Notes under the pieces: generated by a model
Told to the model about the DNA's origin: nothing
Databases searched by the model: none
What the model saw: only the letters and a program-made list of their open reading frames with translations
Translations under genes and position numbers: made by a program
Shown here: piece by piece, positions 25,731 to 59,657 of the stretch
Position numbering within the stretch: the stretch's first letter is position 1
Layout: every line of letters starts with the position of its first letter
Source of the DNA: an uncultured Roseburia sp.
GTDB taxonomy: Bacteria; Bacillota; Clostridia; Lachnospirales; Lachnospiraceae
DNA length: 64,000 nt
Assembly: GCA_947573605.1 (NCBI GenBank)
Contig: CANPGM010000001.1
Location: 1 to 64,000 of the forward strand
Direction: 5' to 3'

Positions 25731-27497
25731 ATGGCTAATGGCTTTGGAACGTTGTATATCGGAGCGTCAGGCTTAAAAAGTTCACAGAACGGATTAAATA
25801 CAACATCAAATAACCTTGCGAACGTAAATACTTTGGGGTATGTGCGTCAGCAGGTTATCTATTCAGATCGCAATTACAACACCTATGATACGACAACGGC
25901 AATCAGTCCGCAGCAGACAGGTCTCGGCGTTAAAATTGGCGATGTCGTACATGCAAGGGATGTTTTCTTAGATAGATCATTCCGCACCATTTCGGGGCGT
26001 CAGGCATTCTATGCATCTACAGCGGAGGCGATTGACGAGGTTTATACGTTTTATCAGGAACTGGAGGGTAAGGCCTTCCAGGATTCTATGGGAGATTTCT
26101 GGACGGCGTTTCAGGAGTTTGCCAAGAGGCCGGACGATACGGTAAATCAGAATCTCGTCATACAGAAGGCTCATTTGTTTATATCCAGAGCAGCCGCCGT
26201 TTACAAGGGATTCCGTGACTATCAGAGCAATATAAACACACAGATTTCAAACGATATTGATAAAATAAATGAACTGGGCAATACCATCTATGAATTGAAT
26301 CTTGAAATTCAGAAAATAGAGGCGGCCGGAGTGGAAACGGCAATGACGCTGCGGGATCAGAGAGACGCGGCGCTTGACGAGCTTTCTGCCTATGCCGACA
26401 TCCAGTATAAAGAGTCAACCGACGGTATTGTAAAAGTAAAGCTGGAGGGGACGGAGTTTATTGATTCCGTTGCCTGCTATAAAATCGGTAAAAGGACGGA
26501 CGATATTAACGGCTTTGTTACGCCGTACTGGATTCATTCATCCAATCCGGAAAACGGAGATTACGACGAGCTTTATAATTTTACCGTCGATATATCTTCT
26601 GAACTCGGTACGGATATGGGCGAGCTTAAGGCTCTGGTTCTTGCAAGGGGCGACCGCACGGCGAACTATAGAGATATTGAGGGATTATCCGTCAGAGAGT
26701 ACAATACTTCTACGGCTGATTCCATTGCGGCGGGAATGTCAATTATGCTGTCTGCCGAAGCGCAGCTCGATCAGCTCGTACACGGAATCGTAACGGCTAT
26801 TAATGATATTTTCTGCCCGAATATTGAGAGCGGGGCAGTAACGGGGCTGACCGGAGACAATATGTTAAAAGCGACGGATGCAAACGGCAAGGAATATTAT
26901 ATAAAGGCGGATACGCTGATATTGGATGTGGATAAATGCTCTTACGGCGTTGACGGAGAGCTGCCGCCCACAGAGCTTTTTACCAGACTTGGTACGGAAC
27001 GCTACACAAAAGTGGAAGCGGAAGACGGAAATACTTACTATATTTACAATAAAGAAGATCCGACGGATGCGTCAAAGCAGTATACGCTCGGATATATCAG
27101 TGTAAACGAGATTTTGAGGGAAGAAGAAACAAGGCTGCCGCATTTGACAAAAAATGGCAGCGTGGATCAGGCGCTTGCGGATCGTCTGGTGGGGATCTGG
27201 GATGAAAAACGTCTGACATTAGATCCATCCGACACGAACGCGCTGACCTTTATGGATTATTATTCGAATATGATAGGAAATTTCGGAACGCTTGGGTCAA
27301 TCTATGAATCTACGGCTGCAAGTCTTACAGGTTCGGTTGACTCTACAGATAATCAGAGAGCACAGGTGATCGGCGTTTCTTCGGATGAAGAGCTGACAAA
27401 GATGATTAAATATCAGAATGCTTATAATGCAGCCAGCCGGTTTATAAATGTAGTAGATGAAATGATTGAGCATCTGCTGACCCGCCTGGGCGCATAG
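25731..27497 (+). CDS. flgK: Flagellar hook-associated protein FlgK (first copy)
   Basis: A 588-residue hook-filament junction protein. The N-terminal D0/D1 signature is LYIGASGLKSSQNGLNTTSN followed by NLANVNTLGYVRQQ, and the C-terminus has SVDSTDNQRAQVIGVSSDEE with KYQNAYNAASRFINVVDEMI. The middle (about 180-480) is the exposed domain and includes tyrosine- and acid-rich segments. It is one of two adjacent FlgK-type genes, 15 bases apart, each with its own good ribosome site. They differ enough to be paralogues rather than recent copies. Confidence 0.9.
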   Translation: MANGFGTLYIGASGLKSSQNGLNTTSNNLANVNTLGYVRQQVIYSDRNYNTYDTTTAISPQQTGLGVKIGDVVHARDVFLDRSFRTISGRQAFYASTAEAIDEVYTFYQELEGKAFQDSMGDFWTAFQEFAKRPDDTVNQNLVIQKAHLFISRAAAVYKGFRDYQSNINTQISNDIDKINELGNTIYELNLEIQKIEAAGVETAMTLRDQRDAALDELSAYADIQYKESTDGIVKVKLEGTEFIDSVACYKIGKRTDDINGFVTPYWIHSSNPENGDYDELYNFTVDISSELGTDMGELKALVLARGDRTANYRDIEGLSVREYNTSTADSIAAGMSIMLSAEAQLDQLVHGIVTAINDIFCPNIESGAVTGLTGDNMLKATDANGKEYYIKADTLILDVDKCSYGVDGELPPTELFTRLGTERYTKVEAEDGNTYYIYNKEDPTDASKQYTLGYISVNEILREEETRLPHLTKNGSVDQALADRLVGIWDEKRLTLDPSDTNALTFMDYYSNMIGNFGTLGSIYESTAASLTGSVDSTDNQRAQVIGVSSDEELTKMIKYQNAYNAASRFINVVDEMIEHLLTRLGA

Positions 27498-27512: not shown

Positions 27513-29381
27513 ATGCCATCACAATTTTTTGGACTGACAATTGCATCATCCGGCCTGAGCGCATTTCAGGCTTCATTAAATACAACTGCTAATAATATTT
27601 CGAATGTAAAGACGGTGGGCTATACCAGACAGTGTGCGAATCTTGCGTCTTCGGCAGCATTGCGCGTCTATGCAAAATACGGCAGCGCCGGTACCGGCGT
27701 GGAGGTTACGTCCATTACGCAGATTCGGAATGAGTACTATGATACAAAGTTCTGGCAGAATCAGTCGGCGCTTGGATTATTTGAAACAAAGCTCGGCTAT
27801 TTGCAGCAGATTGAAAATTATTATATGGACAGCGACGTTGGAAAGGGATTTACTTCGATTCTGAACGATATGTTTAACTCGCTCGATTCTCTGAAAGATA
27901 ATGCGGAACTTGTCAGTTACAGACAGCAGTTTATCTCCAAAGCGCAGAATTTCGCAGCCTATTTTAACGCGACGGCAGTTGGGCTGGGAAGACTGCAGGA
28001 GAGCATTAATGAGGAAATCAAGTCGACCGTTGCGAATATCAATGCAATCGGGAAGAAAATCTCACTGTTGAATGAACAGATTAATATCATCGAACTGGAA
28101 GGCGGCTACGCAAACGAGCTTAGAGATCAGAGGGCGGTTCTTGTAGATGAGTTGTCTGCTATTGCGGAGGTGGAAGTCAGCGAAGTGCCGGTAAGCAATT
28201 CGAAGTTCCCGGATATGCTGACGGGAGCTAACTATTATACCGTAAAAATCAACGGACAGAAGCTTGTCGATACGTATGAATATAATCCGCTTGTCTGTAA
28301 AGCAAGAGAGAACAAAATCAACCAGTCGGATATGGACGGTATGTACGAGATTTACTGGGAATCAACCGGAAACAGGTTTGACGCAGGTTCTAAGTTTTCT
28401 TCCGGTTCTTTAAAGGCAATGTTTGATATCCGCGACGGCAATAATGAAGAAAACTTTACGGGTACCGTAAACAAGATAGAAAACGGAAAAACGCTTCATA
28501 TGACAAATCCTTCGATTACGAATTTGAACGCATTGTCTATGCCGAAAGAAGGCGTGCTGACGATTGACGGAAAGAATTATGTTTATACCGATTTTTCGTT
28601 TGAGGCGGACGCGGAAGGAAACGTTTCCAACTTTGTTTTCGAGCTGAAGGAAGCGCTGACAATGGATCAGCAGGCGAGGATTGAAGGAAGAAAAGCGTCT
28701 GTCGGCGAGGCGATTGACGCGAAGGGAATCCCTTATTATATGTCGCAGATGAATGAATTTTTACGTTCGTTTGCATCTGCATTTAACGAGATTATGGAAG
28801 AAGGGCAGGATTTAAATGGTAATGACATTGATTTCTCCTTCTTTAAATCGGATGATCTGGTATTAGGAGGACAGATTGATTTTCTCAATCTGAAAAAAGA
28901 TGTTCCGGATGCCGGTACAAAACGATATTCTGCGTCGGACAATACGTATTTTCTTATGACTTGCCGTAATTTTGCGGTAGATAAGGGCTGTATTAAAGAT
29001 CCGACAAAAATTGCAACGACTGCAAATGTAAAGAAAGACGGAGAGTATGTAGAGAACGGAGCCGCGGCTTATGAGCTTGTGGAACGAATGCTTTTATTAA
29101 AGAGCGACACGGTATTATTCCGCGGAGCGGGAGCCGACGACTTCCTGGAATGTATGTATTCCGATATTTCGGTGGATACAAACGAGACCGGAATTTTCTA
29201 CGAAAATTATTTTAATATTGCAAATACAATTGATAACCAGAGAATGTCGATTTCCGGCGTGGACGAAGACGAAGAGGCGTTAAATCTGATAAAGTTTCAG
29301 AATGCTTATAATCTGTCTTCGAAAATGATTTCCGTATTTACGGAAATCTATGACCGCCTGATTTTAGAGACCGGCGTATAA
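27513..29381 (+). CDS. flgK: Flagellar hook-associated protein FlgK (second copy, paralogue)
   Basis: A 622-residue FlgK paralogue. N-terminal signature FGLTIASSGLSAFQASLNTT with NNISNVKTVGYTRQ; C-terminal NIANTIDNQRMSISGVDEDE with KFQNAYNLSSKMISVFTEIY. It is slightly longer than the first FlgK in the exposed middle. Normal flagella have one FlgK ring followed by FlgL; the second copy could replace the first in some filaments or form an extra junction ring. That role is speculation; the pairing itself is seen directly. Confidence 0.9.
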   Translation: MPSQFFGLTIASSGLSAFQASLNTTANNISNVKTVGYTRQCANLASSAALRVYAKYGSAGTGVEVTSITQIRNEYYDTKFWQNQSALGLFETKLGYLQQIENYYMDSDVGKGFTSILNDMFNSLDSLKDNAELVSYRQQFISKAQNFAAYFNATAVGLGRLQESINEEIKSTVANINAIGKKISLLNEQINIIELEGGYANELRDQRAVLVDELSAIAEVEVSEVPVSNSKFPDMLTGANYYTVKINGQKLVDTYEYNPLVCKARENKINQSDMDGMYEIYWESTGNRFDAGSKFSSGSLKAMFDIRDGNNEENFTGTVNKIENGKTLHMTNPSITNLNALSMPKEGVLTIDGKNYVYTDFSFEADAEGNVSNFVFELKEALTMDQQARIEGRKASVGEAIDAKGIPYYMSQMNEFLRSFASAFNEIMEEGQDLNGNDIDFSFFKSDDLVLGGQIDFLNLKKDVPDAGTKRYSASDNTYFLMTCRNFAVDKGCIKDPTKIATTANVKKDGEYVENGAAAYELVERMLLLKSDTVLFRGAGADDFLECMYSDISVDTNETGIFYENYFNIANTIDNQRMSISGVDEDEEALNLIKFQNAYNLSSKMISVFTEIYDRLILETGV

Positions 29382-36470: not shown

Positions 36471-37292
36471 ATGGTAGTACAGCACAATCTTACAGCTATG
36501 AACTCTAACAGACAGTTAGGTATCACGACAGGATTACAGGCAAAATCTTCTGAGAAGTTAGCTTCCGGATACAAAGTAAACCGTGCAGGCGATGACGCAG
36601 CAGGTCTTTCCATTTCCGAGAAGATGAGAAGCCAGATCCGTGGATTAAACAAGGCATCTGACAATGCTCAGAACGGTATTTCCTTAATTCAGACAGCTGA
36701 AGGTGCATTAAACGAAGCACACTCCATTTTACAGCGTATGAACGAGCTTGCTACGCAGGCAGCTAACGATACTAACGTATCTGCAGACAGAACCGCTATC
36801 TCTAAAGAGATGACAGCTCTTCAGTCTGAAATCAACCGTATCGCTTGTACAACACAGTTCAATACACAGAACCTGTTAAACGGAAGCTTTGACAGCAAGA
36901 ACCTTCAGGTTGGTGCATTAGAGGGACAGAAGATTGAGATCTCTATCGCTGCTATGAATGCAAGCGGCTTAGGAATCGGCGCTTCAACAGATATTAAAGT
37001 TGACAGCTTTACAAATGCCGGCGCTGCAATGACAAAGATTCAGGCAGCTATTTCTCATGTATCACAGCAGCGTTCCGCACTTGGTGCTTTACAGAACAGA
37101 TTAGAGCACACAATTGCAAACCTTGATACAACAGCAGAGAATACACAGGCAGCTGAGTCTCTTATCCGTGATACAGATATGGCTGATGAGATGGTTACGT
37201 ACAGCAAGAACAACATTCTTGCACAGGCAGGACAGTCCATGCTTGCACAGGCGAACCAGTCTACACAGGGCGTATTATCCTTATTACAGTAA
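36471..37292 (+). CDS. Flagellin, copy 1
   Basis: A 273-residue flagellin made almost only of the D0/D1 helical core; the variable outer domain is reduced to a short hinge. N-terminal VVQHNLTAMNSNRQLGI, SEKLASGYKVNRAGDDAAGL and C-terminal ESLIRDTDMADEMVTYSKNN with GQSMLAQANQSTQGVLSLLQ are canonical. Codon choice is narrower than in neighbouring genes, as expected for very high expression. It has its own sigma-28 promoter, a leader of about 140 bases with candidate CsrA sites, and a downstream terminator. The encoded protein is identical to that of copy 2. FliS, FliW and the Maf glycosyltransferase in this window are its expected partners. Confidence 0.96.
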   Translation: MVVQHNLTAMNSNRQLGITTGLQAKSSEKLASGYKVNRAGDDAAGLSISEKMRSQIRGLNKASDNAQNGISLIQTAEGALNEAHSILQRMNELATQAANDTNVSADRTAISKEMTALQSEINRIACTTQFNTQNLLNGSFDSKNLQVGALEGQKIEISIAAMNASGLGIGASTDIKVDSFTNAGAAMTKIQAAISHVSQQRSALGALQNRLEHTIANLDTTAENTQAAESLIRDTDMADEMVTYSKNNILAQAGQSMLAQANQSTQGVLSLLQ

Positions 37293-37694: not shown

Positions 37695-38516
37695 ATGGTA
37701 GTACAGCACAATCTTACAGCTATGAACTCTAACAGACAGTTAGGTATCACGACAGGATTACAGGCAAAATCTTCTGAGAAGTTAGCTTCCGGATACAAAG
37801 TAAACCGTGCAGGCGATGACGCAGCAGGTCTTTCCATTTCCGAGAAGATGAGAAGCCAGATCCGTGGATTAAACAAGGCATCTGACAATGCTCAGAACGG
37901 TATTTCCTTAATTCAGACAGCTGAAGGTGCATTAAACGAAGCACACTCCATTTTACAGCGTATGAACGAGCTTGCTACGCAGGCAGCTAACGATACTAAC
38001 GTATCTGCAGACAGAACCGCTATCTCTAAAGAGATGACAGCTCTTCAGTCTGAAATCAACCGTATCGCTTGTACAACACAGTTCAATACACAGAACCTGT
38101 TAAACGGAAGCTTTGACAGCAAGAACCTTCAGGTTGGTGCATTAGAGGGACAGAAGATTGAGATCTCTATCGCTGCTATGAATGCAAGCGGCTTAGGAAT
38201 CGGCGCTTCAACAGATATTAAAGTTGACAGCTTTACAAATGCCGGCGCTGCAATGACAAAGATTCAGGCAGCTATTTCTCATGTATCACAGCAGCGTTCC
38301 GCACTTGGTGCTTTACAGAACAGATTAGAGCACACAATTGCAAACCTTGATACAACAGCAGAGAATACACAGGCAGCTGAGTCTCTTATCCGTGATACAG
38401 ATATGGCTGATGAGATGGTTACGTACAGCAAGAACAACATTCTTGCACAGGCAGGACAGTCCATGCTTGCACAGGCGAACCAGTCTACACAGGGTGTATT
38501 ATCCTTATTACAGTAA
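37695..38516 (+). CDS. Flagellin, copy 2
   Basis: Encodes the same 273 residues as copy 1, with an independent sigma-28 promoter and an unrelated terminator. Two full transcription units would double flagellin output without changing the filament. The near-perfect identity, including silent positions and leader, points to recent duplication or continuing gene conversion. The following glycosylation genes may receive read-through from this unit, because the terminator after it has a short T tract. Confidence 0.96.
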   Translation: MVVQHNLTAMNSNRQLGITTGLQAKSSEKLASGYKVNRAGDDAAGLSISEKMRSQIRGLNKASDNAQNGISLIQTAEGALNEAHSILQRMNELATQAANDTNVSADRTAISKEMTALQSEINRIACTTQFNTQNLLNGSFDSKNLQVGALEGQKIEISIAAMNASGLGIGASTDIKVDSFTNAGAAMTKIQAAISHVSQQRSALGALQNRLEHTIANLDTTAENTQAAESLIRDTDMADEMVTYSKNNILAQAGQSMLAQANQSTQGVLSLLQ

Positions 38517-55974: not shown

Positions 55975-57102
55975 ATGAAAAAAAATAGCGGTTTGCAGGC
56001 GGACGGAAAGTTGTCCGTCTGTATTATTACAAAAAATGAAGAAGAAAAGCTGCGGCGCTGCCTTACACATCTGCGTTCTTTTCCGTTTGAAATTGTCGTA
56101 ACGGATACCGGCTCGACAGACGGGACGCTTTCTATGCTTGCGAAGATGCAGAAAGATGCCGGCAAAGAGGGTTTTCAGAAAGCGGTGATCAAGGTCTGTC
56201 ATTTTTCCTGGTGCAGCGATTTTGCTGCGGCAAAAAATTTTGCCGTCAGTCAGGCAGAAAATGATATGGTTTTTGTATTGGACAGCGACGAGTATATTGA
56301 ACGGCTGGATTTGGGGGAATTGATGCGCCTGGTCTCTGAAAATCCGGGCAGAGTCGGAAGGATTGTCCTAAGAAATCAGGTGGAGCAAAACGGACGCATC
56401 TGCTATTTTACGGAACGGGTAAGCCGTATTTTTTCAAAAAGCAGATTTCTTTACGAGGGAAGAATTCACGAGCAGGTTGTAGCGGCAGACGGCGCGGCCT
56501 ACGATACCTATGACGTGCCGGTATGGGCGCTGCATGACGGATACCTCGGTACAAAAGAGCAGCGGGCAAAAAAAGCCGGACGGAACAGAGCGCTTTTGGA
56601 AGAAGAAATGAAAGAAAAAGGGGAGGACCCGTATCTGCTTTATCAGATTGGCAAAAGTTTTTATATGTCCGGAGATTATGAGGCGGCGGCGAATTATTTT
56701 TCAAAAGGGCTGTCGTTTGACCTGGAACCGGCGCTCGAATACGTGATTGATATGGTAGAAACCTACGGCTACGCCCTGATTCATGCGGGAAGGGCAAAGG
56801 AGGCTTTATTTTTTGAAAATATATACGATACGTTTGGAAATACGGCGGATTTTAGAATATTAATGGGTTTTATCTACATGAACAACGAACGATTTGGCGA
56901 GGCTGCGGCACAATTTGTAAAAGCAGCCGAATGCAGTACCTGCAGGATGGAGGGCGCAAATTCCTACCTTGCATATTATAATGCAGGAGTGGTAGAAGAG
57001 TGCCTCGGAAATCTTGGAAAAGCGGCAGAATACTACAAGCGGTGCGGATCATACGAACCGGCAAGGGAGAGACGAGCCAAATTAGCGATTTGTAAAGAAT
57101 AA
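55975..57102 (+). CDS. GT2 glycosyltransferase with C-terminal TPR repeats
   Basis: A 375-residue enzyme. The GT-A domain (about 10-230) begins LSVCIITKNEEEKLRRCLTH, has VTDTGSTDGTLS, the DSDEY metal-binding site and YEGRIHEQV. From about residue 225 a helical part with TPR-like repeats follows (YQIGKSFYMSGDYEAAANYF; ILMGFIYMNNERFGEAAAQF; YYNAGVVEECLGNLGKAAEY). This domain order is typical of protein-glycosylating GT2 enzymes such as the SunS type, in which the TPR region recognises the acceptor protein. It precedes the sigma-28-like promoter of the flagellinolysin unit. Confidence 0.88.
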   Translation: MKKNSGLQADGKLSVCIITKNEEEKLRRCLTHLRSFPFEIVVTDTGSTDGTLSMLAKMQKDAGKEGFQKAVIKVCHFSWCSDFAAAKNFAVSQAENDMVFVLDSDEYIERLDLGELMRLVSENPGRVGRIVLRNQVEQNGRICYFTERVSRIFSKSRFLYEGRIHEQVVAADGAAYDTYDVPVWALHDGYLGTKEQRAKKAGRNRALLEEEMKEKGEDPYLLYQIGKSFYMSGDYEAAANYFSKGLSFDLEPALEYVIDMVETYGYALIHAGRAKEALFFENIYDTFGNTADFRILMGFIYMNNERFGEAAAQFVKAAECSTCRMEGANSYLAYYNAGVVEECLGNLGKAAEYYKRCGSYEPARERRAKLAICKE

Positions 57103-57120
57103 CCTGTGATCTGCCGATAT
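57093..57120 (+). promoter_or_regulatory. Candidate sigma-28 promoter for the flagellinolysin unit
   Basis: TAAA at 57093-57096 and CCGATAT at 57114-57120 (GCCGATAT with the preceding base). The gap is 17, one base longer than at the flagellin genes. The -35 box overlaps the end of the GT2 gene. Confidence 0.5.
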
Positions 57121-57146
57121 AAACTGTGATAGTATATGGTTTTTGA

Positions 57147-57174: not shown

Positions 57175-57555
57175 ATGGGAGAAATAAGAAATTATATATG
57201 CGGCTGTGGATATCATGAGGAGCTGTATACAGGGATTGGTTTAAACGGACGGAATATGCATATGATTTCACATTTTTTTCCGGAAGAAGCGGAGAAGTTT
57301 CGGCAGAAAAAGGAAGAAAAGCTTATTTCTACATATGTATTGGCAAATGTGCTGGCGGCGTGTCCCAACTGCAATAAATTAGTGATTGTACCGGGGTTTA
57401 CCTATCAGAGAAGGGATGAGTCGTTTGCGGATTGTTTTATGAAGGATTGCCCGGATTGTGACAGTGAAGTTTTTGCCGTTTTAAATACGGAAAAGGTTCC
57501 GTGTCCGAAGTGCGGCGCGGTTATGGATTATAAAATTACAGGTGACTGGGATTAG
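57175..57555 (+). CDS. Small cysteine-rich (double zinc-ribbon-like) protein
   Basis: A 126-residue protein that I do not recognise. Cysteine pairs occur at CGCG near the N-terminus, at ACPNCNKL, at DCPDCDSE and at PCPKCGAV, so it probably binds one or two zinc ions. The region between, HMISHFFPEEAEKFRQKKEE, is helical and charged. It shares the candidate sigma-28 promoter with the flagellinolysin gene 53 bases downstream. Hence it may be an accessory or chaperone for that protein, or simply an unrelated neighbour. Confidence 0.72.
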   Translation: MGEIRNYICGCGYHEELYTGIGLNGRNMHMISHFFPEEAEKFRQKKEEKLISTYVLANVLAACPNCNKLVIVPGFTYQRRDESFADCFMKDCPDCDSEVFAVLNTEKVPCPKCGAVMDYKITGDWD

Positions 57556-57608: not shown

Positions 57609-59657
57609 GTGATTTTACAGCACAATCCGGGGGCGGCTAATGCGGCCAGACAATATCATATTGTAATTGAGAAACAAAGAAAAGGGGCGGAAAAGCTGTC
57701 TACCGGATATCGGATTAACCGGGCAGCGGATGATGCGGCAGGGCTTACAATCAGCGAGAGTATGCGCTATATGATAAGGGGAGCCGGGAAGGCTTCGGAT
57801 AATGCGCAGCATGGAATTTCGCTGCTTCAGACGGCGGACGGCGCACTGAATGAGTCGCAGCAGGTGATTCAGCGAATCAGGGAACTATCGGTTCAGGCCG
57901 CCAATGATACCAATACCGAATCCGACCGCGAAGCGATACAAAAGGAAGTCGTCAGTATGCTTTCGGAGGTGGACCGAATCGCAAATGATACGGAATTTAA
58001 CACCATAAAGCTGTTGGACGGAACGCTGGAGGCATCGCCGTATCAAAGCAGTCCGATCTTGATTCGGGGAACGGCGCAGACAGACGCTATGCAGCAGGCG
58101 GCATTTGAAATCGTCGCAGACCCGATTGTCGGGGCGGGAGTGAAGCTTAACAATACGCAGGTGGCCGGACTAAACGAGATGCTTGTAAATTCCATTGTTC
58201 CGCAAGCGGTAAACGCGTTTTTAAAGACGTTTCCGGTATTTCAGACGGCAGCCGGCGCAAATCAGGTAAGCAATCAAATCGGGCTGAAGCTCTATGGCGA
58301 TACGTCTACCACACTGGCTTCCGTATCAATTAAGTATGCCAGATATTCGAACGGGACGATTGCAGGCGATTCGATCCAACTGAATCTTTCCGTGAATACA
58401 AGGGCACTTTCTTTTTCGGGAAACGATCTGACGCCGGAGAGCAGGACGTCATTGGAGACTACAATTGTTCATGAAATGATGCATGCATTTATGGACGATA
58501 CGCTGACGAACGGAATGATCGGAGCGACAGACGGGAAAGCAGACAGCGCCAATCAGTTTCCCGGATGGTTTAAGGAAGGAATGGCGCAGTGTGCGGCAGG
58601 CGGGTGCGCCAATTATAACGACTGGGTAAACGGCGCGCTGAAACTGAACGAAAATTCTACGACGGCTCAAATCAGCGCGGCGGTAAAGTCGTCTGCGAAT
58701 CGGCTGTCAAGCAATTCCACGGCGTCAAAATACGGAACCGGTTATCTTGCGTGTATGTATCTGAGCTATCTGGCGGCGGGAAAACCGGCTGCGCTTGATT
58801 CCGCGGGACTTGCAGGGGGAATCAATCAGATTTTCGAAAAGCTGATAAACGGAGATTCTTTAAATAATATCGTAAAGGACATATCGGGCGGAACGTATAC
58901 ATCCGTAACGGATTTTCGAAATAAATTCGGGGATAACGCTTCGGCGGAATTTATATCAAAGCTTTTAAAAGCGGTCGGGAACACCGGAAACGGAGGGGTT
59001 GTCGCGTCTTTGACCGCGGATGATCTGTTAAGCGACAATAATGCCGCTTCTCCTGTATTTCAAGTGGACGATACAAAGGAATTTGTTGTTTCGAGTGTCG
59101 GAAATAACCGGAATTGGGGAACCGGCGGAGCAAATAAGACAGGGAGCGGTTTTGCCGGCGGCAGTACGGGCGGCCCGGGCGGTACGGGAGGTCCAGGCGG
59201 TCCGAGTGGCCCAGGCGGCGGTACGGGCAGCGGTCCAGGCGGACCTGCAGGCACGAATCTTGCGGGAGCGCTGAACCTTCAGATCGGCGCGCGTGAGGGA
59301 AATGCATTTGCGATTTCCATTGACGATATGCATACGGCTGTTTTAGGAATTGAGAATCTTTCCGTCAGGAGCTTTGACGATGCCGGAATGGCGATTACCG
59401 CCTGCGACAATGCGCTGACAAAGATATCGGAAAACAGATCAAGAATAGGCGCGTACATAAACAGGCTGGAATATGCTGTAAATAATCTGGAAAATACGTC
59501 TGAAAACACACAGGCAGCGGAAAGTCTGATCCGGGATTCGGATATGGCGGACGAAATGGTACAATATTCTAAAAATCAGATTCTTTCGCAGGCCGGACAG
59601 TCTATTTTAAGCAACGCGGTCAATCAGCCGGAATCGGTACTTGCACTGCTTGGATAG
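57609..59657 (+). CDS. Flagellinolysin: flagellin with an inserted HExxH zinc metallopeptidase domain
   Basis: A 682-residue flagellin. Residues 1-140 form the N-terminal D0/D1 region (ILQHNPGAANAARQYHIVIE; GAEKLSTGYRINRAADDAAG). The last 125 or so form the C-terminal D1/D0 (ESLIRDSDMADEMVQYSKNQ; GQSILSNAVNQPESVLALLG). Between them, about 150-490 is a metallopeptidase with H288-E289-M-M-H292 in TTIVHEMMHAFMDD and a likely third zinc ligand E323 in PGWFKEGMAQ. A Gly/Pro-rich linker (about 504-553) joins the peptidase to the C-terminal helices. Proteolytic flagellins of this layout are a described family that makes enzymatically active filaments. Substrate and activity here are unproven. The GTG start and a sigma-28-like promoter upstream fit late flagellar expression. 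Confidence 0.93.
   Translation: MILQHNPGAANAARQYHIVIEKQRKGAEKLSTGYRINRAADDAAGLTISESMRYMIRGAGKASDNAQHGISLLQTADGALNESQQVIQRIRELSVQAANDTNTESDREAIQKEVVSMLSEVDRIANDTEFNTIKLLDGTLEASPYQSSPILIRGTAQTDAMQQAAFEIVADPIVGAGVKLNNTQVAGLNEMLVNSIVPQAVNAFLKTFPVFQTAAGANQVSNQIGLKLYGDTSTTLASVSIKYARYSNGTIAGDSIQLNLSVNTRALSFSGNDLTPESRTSLETTIVHEMMHAFMDDTLTNGMIGATDGKADSANQFPGWFKEGMAQCAAGGCANYNDWVNGALKLNENSTTAQISAAVKSSANRLSSNSTASKYGTGYLACMYLSYLAAGKPAALDSAGLAGGINQIFEKLINGDSLNNIVKDISGGTYTSVTDFRNKFGDNASAEFISKLLKAVGNTGNGGVVASLTADDLLSDNNAASPVFQVDDTKEFVVSSVGNNRNWGTGGANKTGSGFAGGSTGGPGGTGGPGGPSGPGGGTGSGPGGPAGTNLAGALNLQIGAREGNAFAISIDDMHTAVLGIENLSVRSFDDAGMAITACDNALTKISENRSRIGAYINRLEYAVNNLENTSENTQAAESLIRDSDMADEMVQYSKNQILSQAGQSILSNAVNQPESVLALLG

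Follow-up and report, generated by a model that had tools for sequence, protein, structure and literature searches.

A conserved zinc-ribbon-like gene beside flagellinolysins of Clostridia and its possible role in guarding a proteolytic flagellin

Introduction

A flagellin that carries a protease raises the question of how the cell restrains this enzyme while it is in the cytosolic flagellin pool. The portions available to us of two papers on flagellinolysins (PMC5595980, PMC7643111) contain no explanation that we could find. The question is posed here by a gene in the window, by which we mean the entire 64,000-nucleotide stretch of DNA that was analyzed. While flagellinolysins themselves are known, the same portions of these papers do not describe a conserved partner gene, which is the main subject of this report. 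Because this partner is linked to the protease gene and has an invariant chain end, it makes the question of cytosolic restraint directly testable with two small proteins. The partner is also a candidate specific inhibitor of flagellinolysin, and a genomic marker for a Clostridia-centered branch of proteolytic flagellins that is found in many gut-derived genomes. The guard mechanism that we discuss below is a testable proposal.

Results and discussion

The flagellinolysin of the window

The ORF at 57609..59657, which like all its features given below lies on the + strand, encodes 682 amino acids and has a GTG start behind GGAG. A first-pass annotation of this DNA had claimed that the protein keeps both flagellin ends, and that an HExxH metallopeptidase (H288, E289, H292 and probably E323) lies between them. 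Both claims agree with our results. A Flagellin_N domain (57639..58025; residues 11-139; E 3.9e-37) and a Flagellin_C domain (59397..59651; residues 597-681; E 8.2e-24) are matched at the two ends. The metallopeptidase domain (58152..59024; residues about 182-472) contains the zinc-binding motif HEMMH (58470..58484; residues 288-292) and the third zinc ligand Glu323 (58575..58577), which is the Glu within WFKEG and is followed three residues on by Ala326. The residues H288, E289, H292 and E323 are invariant in all 94 rows of a peptidase alignment that includes the window, and W320, G324 and Y375 are likewise identical in every row; near-duplicates and short fragments were removed from this alignment beforehand, such that L014, L035, L036, L074, L095, L108 and L119 are among the sequences left out.

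The NCBIfam flagellinolysin model, NF033876, matches the ORF from end to end with an E-value of 8.5e-54, and the resemblance is therefore far beyond chance. The score is 183.5 bits, which is 21.5 bits under the curated cut-off of 205. In all 50 of the aligned relatives, window included, this model is found at E 1e-20 or better, the best being 8.1e-71. Judged by these sequence features, the product is a flagellinolysin, i.e., a kind of protein that has already been published.

The first-pass annotation had also called for a structure prediction, and this prediction places HExxH and E323 on helices of a confidently predicted domain. Specifically, the AlphaFold2 model of the flagellinolysin has a mean pLDDT of 82.7, with block values of 82-98 in the peptidase domain, where helix 276-298 contains HExxH and, after three strands, helix 319-330 contains E323. 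The pLDDT is below 50 at residues 144-171 and 513-552; the Gly-rich linker that leads from the peptidase to the C-terminal flagellin half (59142..59258) has such low values. We take the inserted domain to be a predicted gluzincin-like zinc peptidase. In a fold search of the PDB with the full model, all 50 rows listed are flagellins, and the peptidase part was barely probed. The peptidase sequence had only chance-level matches in Pfam and the PDB, and a profile of the domain had no PDB sequence match.

Two published enzymes resemble this protein, as far as the available parts of the respective papers describe them. In FliA(H) of Clostridium haemolyticum (Eckhard 2017, PMC5595980), a peptidase is also located in the hypervariable region between flagellin ends, and the HExxH motif is also followed by a downstream Glu with an Ala three residues on (Glu262/Ala265, corresponding to Glu323/Ala326). 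However, the distance from the second His to this Glu is 31 residues in the window and 25 in FliA(H), and the Gly-rich linker is a feature of the window protein, unlike FliA(H). HgrFlaMP of Hylemonella gracilis (Eckhard 2020, PMC7643111) has the same architecture, and its substrates include flagellin ends. As an additional observation, a segment with at least 10 Gly per 25 residues follows the peptidase in 24 of the 78 flagellin-type relatives that we counted.

A small gene beside flagellinolysins

When the neighborhoods of flagellinolysins were compared, only one gene recurred widely. In the window, this partner gene is directly upstream of 57609, at 57175..57555 on the + strand, and had been missed by the first-pass annotation. 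The listed ORF begins at 57136, and we selected the ATG at 57175 based on the alignment. The resulting protein of 126 amino acids is zinc-ribbon-like, with four Cys pairs, has no evident export signal and ends in Gly-Asp-Trp-Asp. This end is highly conserved: Trp-Asp directly precedes the stop codon in 72 of the 72 partners that adjoin a flagellinolysin. An alignment of 62 partners shows no exception to the last Cys pair or to the terminal Trp-Asp. The remaining cysteines occur in 59 to 61 of these sequences, and a GxWD tail in 59. The partner in L090 (L090:6758-7168) has lost most of its cysteine pairs, and retains the last pair and a GFWD end.

Our searches of Pfam and NCBIfam suggest that the partner belongs to no named family in these collections. 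At E 0.01, the window protein matches one NCBIfam family, with 17.9 bits where the cut-off is 37, and in Pfam only three zinc-finger or short-domain models, all of them under their cut-offs and none a chaperone family. Other members match generic zinc-ribbon families of NCBIfam (FmdB-type in 17 of 62), among the 25 of 30 families that were listed, and weak HypA-type matches occur in 6 of 51 members. We considered CpXC (PF14353) as the partner's family and rejected it; matches at E 0.01 or better are limited to 5 of 51 members and do not include the window protein, and a CpXC family search of 146 genomes misses both G000 and G106, which bear the partner. A tblastn search of a plasmid collection with the partner gave no match at E 0.01. 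We found no description of the partner in the part of the literature that was searched. For example, the available main text of the FliA(H) paper has no match for zinc ribbon, zinc finger or chaperone (PMC5595980), and the neighbors of HgrFlaMP in the available description include NUDIX and MarR genes, with no zinc-ribbon partner named (PMC7643111).

Linkage and co-occurrence

We searched for partners using an iterated profile that was built from matches in these same loci, and found one at most 500 bp from the flagellinolysin in 67 of 76 named flagellin-type loci, a count that leaves out the broken or partial ORFs in L074 (no partner match) and L119 (partner match). The other nine loci have no nearby partner. 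Of the 67 linked pairs, 65 are on the same strand, and the partner is upstream in 33 and downstream in 34. The intergenic gap, measured between stop-to-stop ORFs, has a median of 17 bp and is at most 4 bp in 26 of the named loci. A second set of 13 flagellin-type loci, which includes the window, consists of short stretches and omits L040 (broken or partial ORF, no partner match), has a partner within 500 bp in five cases, two of which duplicate named loci (L014 = L078 and L035 = L109, with identical peptidase domains). According to parsimony on a 68-row tree of partner-bearing loci, the arrangement of the two genes changed at least 5 times with linkage kept. A count over 99 rows, which omits five edge cases, gives at least 5 changes between presence and absence of the partner among flagellin copies.

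Co-occurrence in genomes was analyzed at two levels. Within the genus, 5 of 60 genomes have a flagellinolysin, and exactly the same 5 have a partner above 90 bits (Fisher p 1.8e-7, relatedness ignored); one further genome has a zinc ribbon that scores 45 bits and lacks the Trp-Asp tail. Within the order, a full partner (above 100 bits) is present in 5 of 392 genomes, in each case beside a flagellin with a peptidase match (p 1.1e-8, relatedness again ignored). One of these flagellins, in G252 (L164), has a divergent 53-bit peptidase match that the single-protein search did not list. No partner was found beside any of 10 peptidase copies that are not flagellins, of which 8 have flanks of only 87 to 1089 bp a side, and order genomes with only such copies do not have a full partner anywhere. 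We regard the link between the partner and flagellinolysin genes as well supported by these sequence data.

The partner is not universal. A full partner is absent from the entire genome in 7 of the 12 flagellinolysin genomes of the order sample. Among 398 genomes of the phylum, we found six flagellin-borne loci with scores of 49-60 bits (L184-L189), and none has an adjacent partner within flanks of about 1 kb. The partner therefore appears to mark a large part of the Clostridia branch, with losses, and not to reflect a universal need. Inspection by eye of partnerless flagellinolysins revealed no recurring substitute small gene. In one of them, an uncharacterized gene is directly upstream (L069:2766-3242). 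Three weaker relatives of the partner (35-47 bits) have no flagellin within 12 to 17 kb around. One of these three, the stand-alone relative in G271 (47 bits), has a YWD end and no flagellin within 17 kb; when it was used as the query, 295 genomes gave no other such protein.

In 68 loci, evolutionary distances between partners track those between peptidases (partial r 0.49) more than those between flagellin ends (0.21), and neither value was reached in 500 permutations. This correlation fits a contact of the partner with the peptidase, and it is weak proof of such a contact, because partner, peptidase and scaffold are inherited together. The peptidase residue that most strongly separates partner-bearing rows (97% of 69) from partnerless ones (40% of 15) is Thr300; these percentages are uncorrected for relatedness, and we make no claim based on them.

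A promoter upstream of the partner

The pattern TAAA-N16-GCCGATAT has a single exact match on both strands of the 64 kb, with 0.02 expected from shuffles; we fixed the exact pattern once a less strict scan of the + strand had listed 26 sites with at most two mismatches, three of them with one. This match (57093..57120, + strand) is 54 bp before the ATG of the partner, and we take it to be a promoter of the sigma-28 type, i.e., a late flagellar promoter, going by the consensus. Like the partner gene, this site had been missed by the first-pass annotation. In the window, partner and flagellinolysin thus look like one late-flagellar transcription unit, and would be co-transcribed.

Across loci, the promoter evidence is uneven, which counts against the operon proposal discussed below. 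Allowing one mismatch or none, we found a site ahead of the first gene in 25 of the 63 loci that have a partner on the same strand, and in the stretch between the two genes in 2. Such upstream sites are present in 7 of 32 loci where the partner comes first, versus 18 of 31 where the flagellin comes first. For comparison, 22 of 1460 random 260-base stretches have a promoter-like site, but this comparison is rough because stop-to-stop ORFs defined the upstream ends, and between-gene stretches are shorter. A promoter-like site also occurs in 3 of 10 loci that lack a same-strand partner.

Possible roles of the partner

Given what can be read from the sequences, i.e., the architecture of the protease, the linkage and co-occurrence of the two genes, the promoter site, the invariance of the tail and the absence of the partner beside the non-flagellin copies examined, we infer that the partner may bind and guard the protease and may plug its active site. 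Under this proposal, a two-gene operon controlled by sigma-28 would encode a flagellin that displays a zinc peptidase, together with a small zinc-ribbon protein located in the cytosol. Before export, the protease would share the cytosol with flagellin monomers, which such enzymes are able to cleave. There, the partner would bind the peptidase domain and prevent it from doing harm, acting as an inhibitor and perhaps as an export escort as well. We judge the chances to be about even that the partner guards the protease flagellin in this way. In a more specific version, the invariant Trp-Asp end would occupy the active-site cleft in the manner of a cleaved product, such that the Trp fills the hydrophobic S2 pocket and the Asp carboxylates reach the zinc. 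The partner would be stripped off and left behind at the export gate, and the protease would be armed only outside, where the flagellin joins the filament and exposes its peptidase. We hold this version more tentatively, and are inclined to doubt it. We know of no earlier example in which a flagellar filament with enzymatic activity has a guard protein dedicated to it.

A cytosolic guard seems to be the simplest reading, because the partner often accompanies a peptidase that is borne by a flagellin, and so held in the cytosol, and never accompanies the copies examined that lack flagellin ends, and because a homologue cuts both flagellin and itself. The free Trp-Asp chain end, in turn, suggests a product-like plug. 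Inhibitors of carboxypeptidases and of serralysins place a chain end in the metalloprotease site, and their likeness to the partner is in the proposed way of working only, with no sequence relation claimed. Regarding the homologue, the available text on the Hylemonella enzyme states that it degraded the N- and C-terminal domains of flagellin, and that purification of the full-length enzyme was lost to aggregation and autolysis (PMC7643111). The hydrophobic S2 pocket has been described from a docking model (PMC5595980), and the Hylemonella enzyme prefers Leu in P2 (PMC7643111). However, Asp is a disfavored residue for the latter enzyme, which counts against a plug that ends in Asp (PMC7643111). 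The fact that the partner is not universal, as seen in the order genomes (7/12), the named loci (9/76) and L184-L189, counts against the guard reading as a whole, and so does the G271 relative with its YWD end and no flagellin nearby.

The same linkage and specificity data would also fit a dedicated export chaperone, which would keep the bulky peptidase unfolded for the narrow flagellar export channel and leave the active site untouched. Such a role would explain why copies with a signal-peptide-like start lack the partner, and cysteine-rich holdases exist elsewhere. However, a free and invariant two-residue tail in 72 of 72 adjacent rows exceeds the needs of a holdase, and Pfam shows no chaperone family for the window partner at E 0.01. 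We consider this role unlikely, but worth taking seriously. The four Cys pairs that most partners keep, along with the weak HypA-type matches in 6 of 51 members, might instead point to a zinc donor that loads the peptidase. Such a donor is improbable, in that a peptidase supplied with zinc inside the cell would already be armed ahead of its export, the partner in L090 keeps its tail despite the loss of most cysteines, and non-flagellin peptidase copies manage without a partner. Finally, the partner could control the expression or translation of the flagellinolysin. FliW acts on flagellin in this manner, a FliW gene is present in the window, and the partner gene is adjacent, mostly on the same strand, and encodes a small zinc-ribbon protein in which no export signal is evident. 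The balance of 33 upstream to 34 downstream partners argues against a role as a leader in cis, and the family matches are to generic zinc ribbons only, although nucleic-acid binding is still compatible with these. We think that such control is very improbable.

The first-pass annotation raised yet another possibility, in which the protease works with a surrounding island of flagellin-glycosylation genes, being glycosylated or processing glycosylated substrates. The sugar genes are real: the window has a Maf/PseD-like gene (38924), a NeuB gene (44781), a cytidylyltransferase gene (45768) and several glycosyltransferase genes, with glycosyltransferase, WbqC and DegT genes extending up to 57102. 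However, the island is loose, as the Maf-like gene is about 17 kb from the flagellinolysin. A functional link to the protease found little support. We compared 80 named loci using homologues of the window's own sugar genes, as opposed to glycosyltransferases in general, and detected such homologues near only 10 (L056, L062, L075, L078-L080, L094, L098, L109 and L127); the flanks examined for the other 70 contain none, and no locus has a homologue of the Maf-like gene nearby. A Pfam scan of 55 of the 68 neighbor ORFs of eight related loci (84 ORFs for ten loci) found 7 Flagellin_N, 3 LicD, 1 NeuB and no Maf matches, among the 25 of 62 families that were listed. It is only the partner that is widely kept beside flagellinolysins. 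We give very little credence to the glycosylation reading, and regard the sugar genes as ordinarily placed near flagellar genes rather than functionally tied to the protease.

Relatives and history of the peptidase

Using a reading by eye to distinguish flagellin-borne from other copies, we found the peptidase domain in 19 of the 392 order genomes, of which 12 have a flagellin-borne copy and 7 have only a non-flagellin copy (one of them broken). A scan of named records, whose patterns favor the flagellin type and from which the best 80 of 138 loci were retained, gave nearly exclusively records of Lachnospiraceae or other Clostridia, plus one Treponema. Overall, 102 loci contributed 105 peptidase ORFs or fragments, including some genes counted twice. 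Both flagellin ends are present in 85 of these, one in 6 and neither in 14.

On a tree of 99 peptidase domains, 10 non-flagellin rows require 3 changes, and comprise a clade of 8, L038 and the Treponema row L076. The peptidases of L038 and L076 are nested among flagellin copies. Long branches are flagged on this tree for L044, L049 and L053; L049 is a flagellin. The non-flagellin copies in L034, L038, L047, L048 and L050-L053 are proteins of about 700-950 amino acids that share the catalytic domain and the invariant residues with the window protein. Unlike it, they have no flagellin ends, have signal-peptide-like starts (by inspection) and have no partner nearby. The Treponema protein (L076:7659-9029) has a lipoprotein-like start, and its peptidase looks as if it had departed from a flagellin.

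The peptidase domain of the window groups with L054-L056 on the 99-domain tree, and on a quick tree of flagellin ends, L054, L056 and L055 are the closest to the window. Therefore, scaffold and protease probably traveled together. Within the genus, there are two distant types of flagellinolysin, one represented by the window and G447 (52% identical) and the other by G004, G430 and G436 (36-37%).

Other flagellins

Two structural flagellin genes are located at 36471..37292 and 37695..38516, both on the + strand. The first encodes 273 amino acids and is likely the main filament subunit. The second differs from it by one base and zero amino acids, and 161 bases upstream of the two genes are also identical. 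The pair is a recent tandem duplication. Co-assembly of the flagellinolysin with this 273-residue flagellin is plausible by analogy with a published homologue, as far as the available text on it goes (PMC5595980). The window also contains two adjacent FlgK-like hook-associated genes (25731-27497 and 27513-29381). Further flagellins in the same genome are at L009:612-2339, L010 (G000:C4:13504-14931) and G000:C4:118772-119086, of which two have large variable regions and one is an apparent orphan flagellin C-terminus.

Among the relatives, some protease flagellins are giant, with frames of 961 to 1668 residues, e.g., those in L064, L065, L066, L067, L068, L071, L073 and L075, where the frame in L066 ends at a contig end. 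The extra length in L065, L067 and L071 is, by inspection, rich in glycine repeats and perhaps forms a beta-helix.
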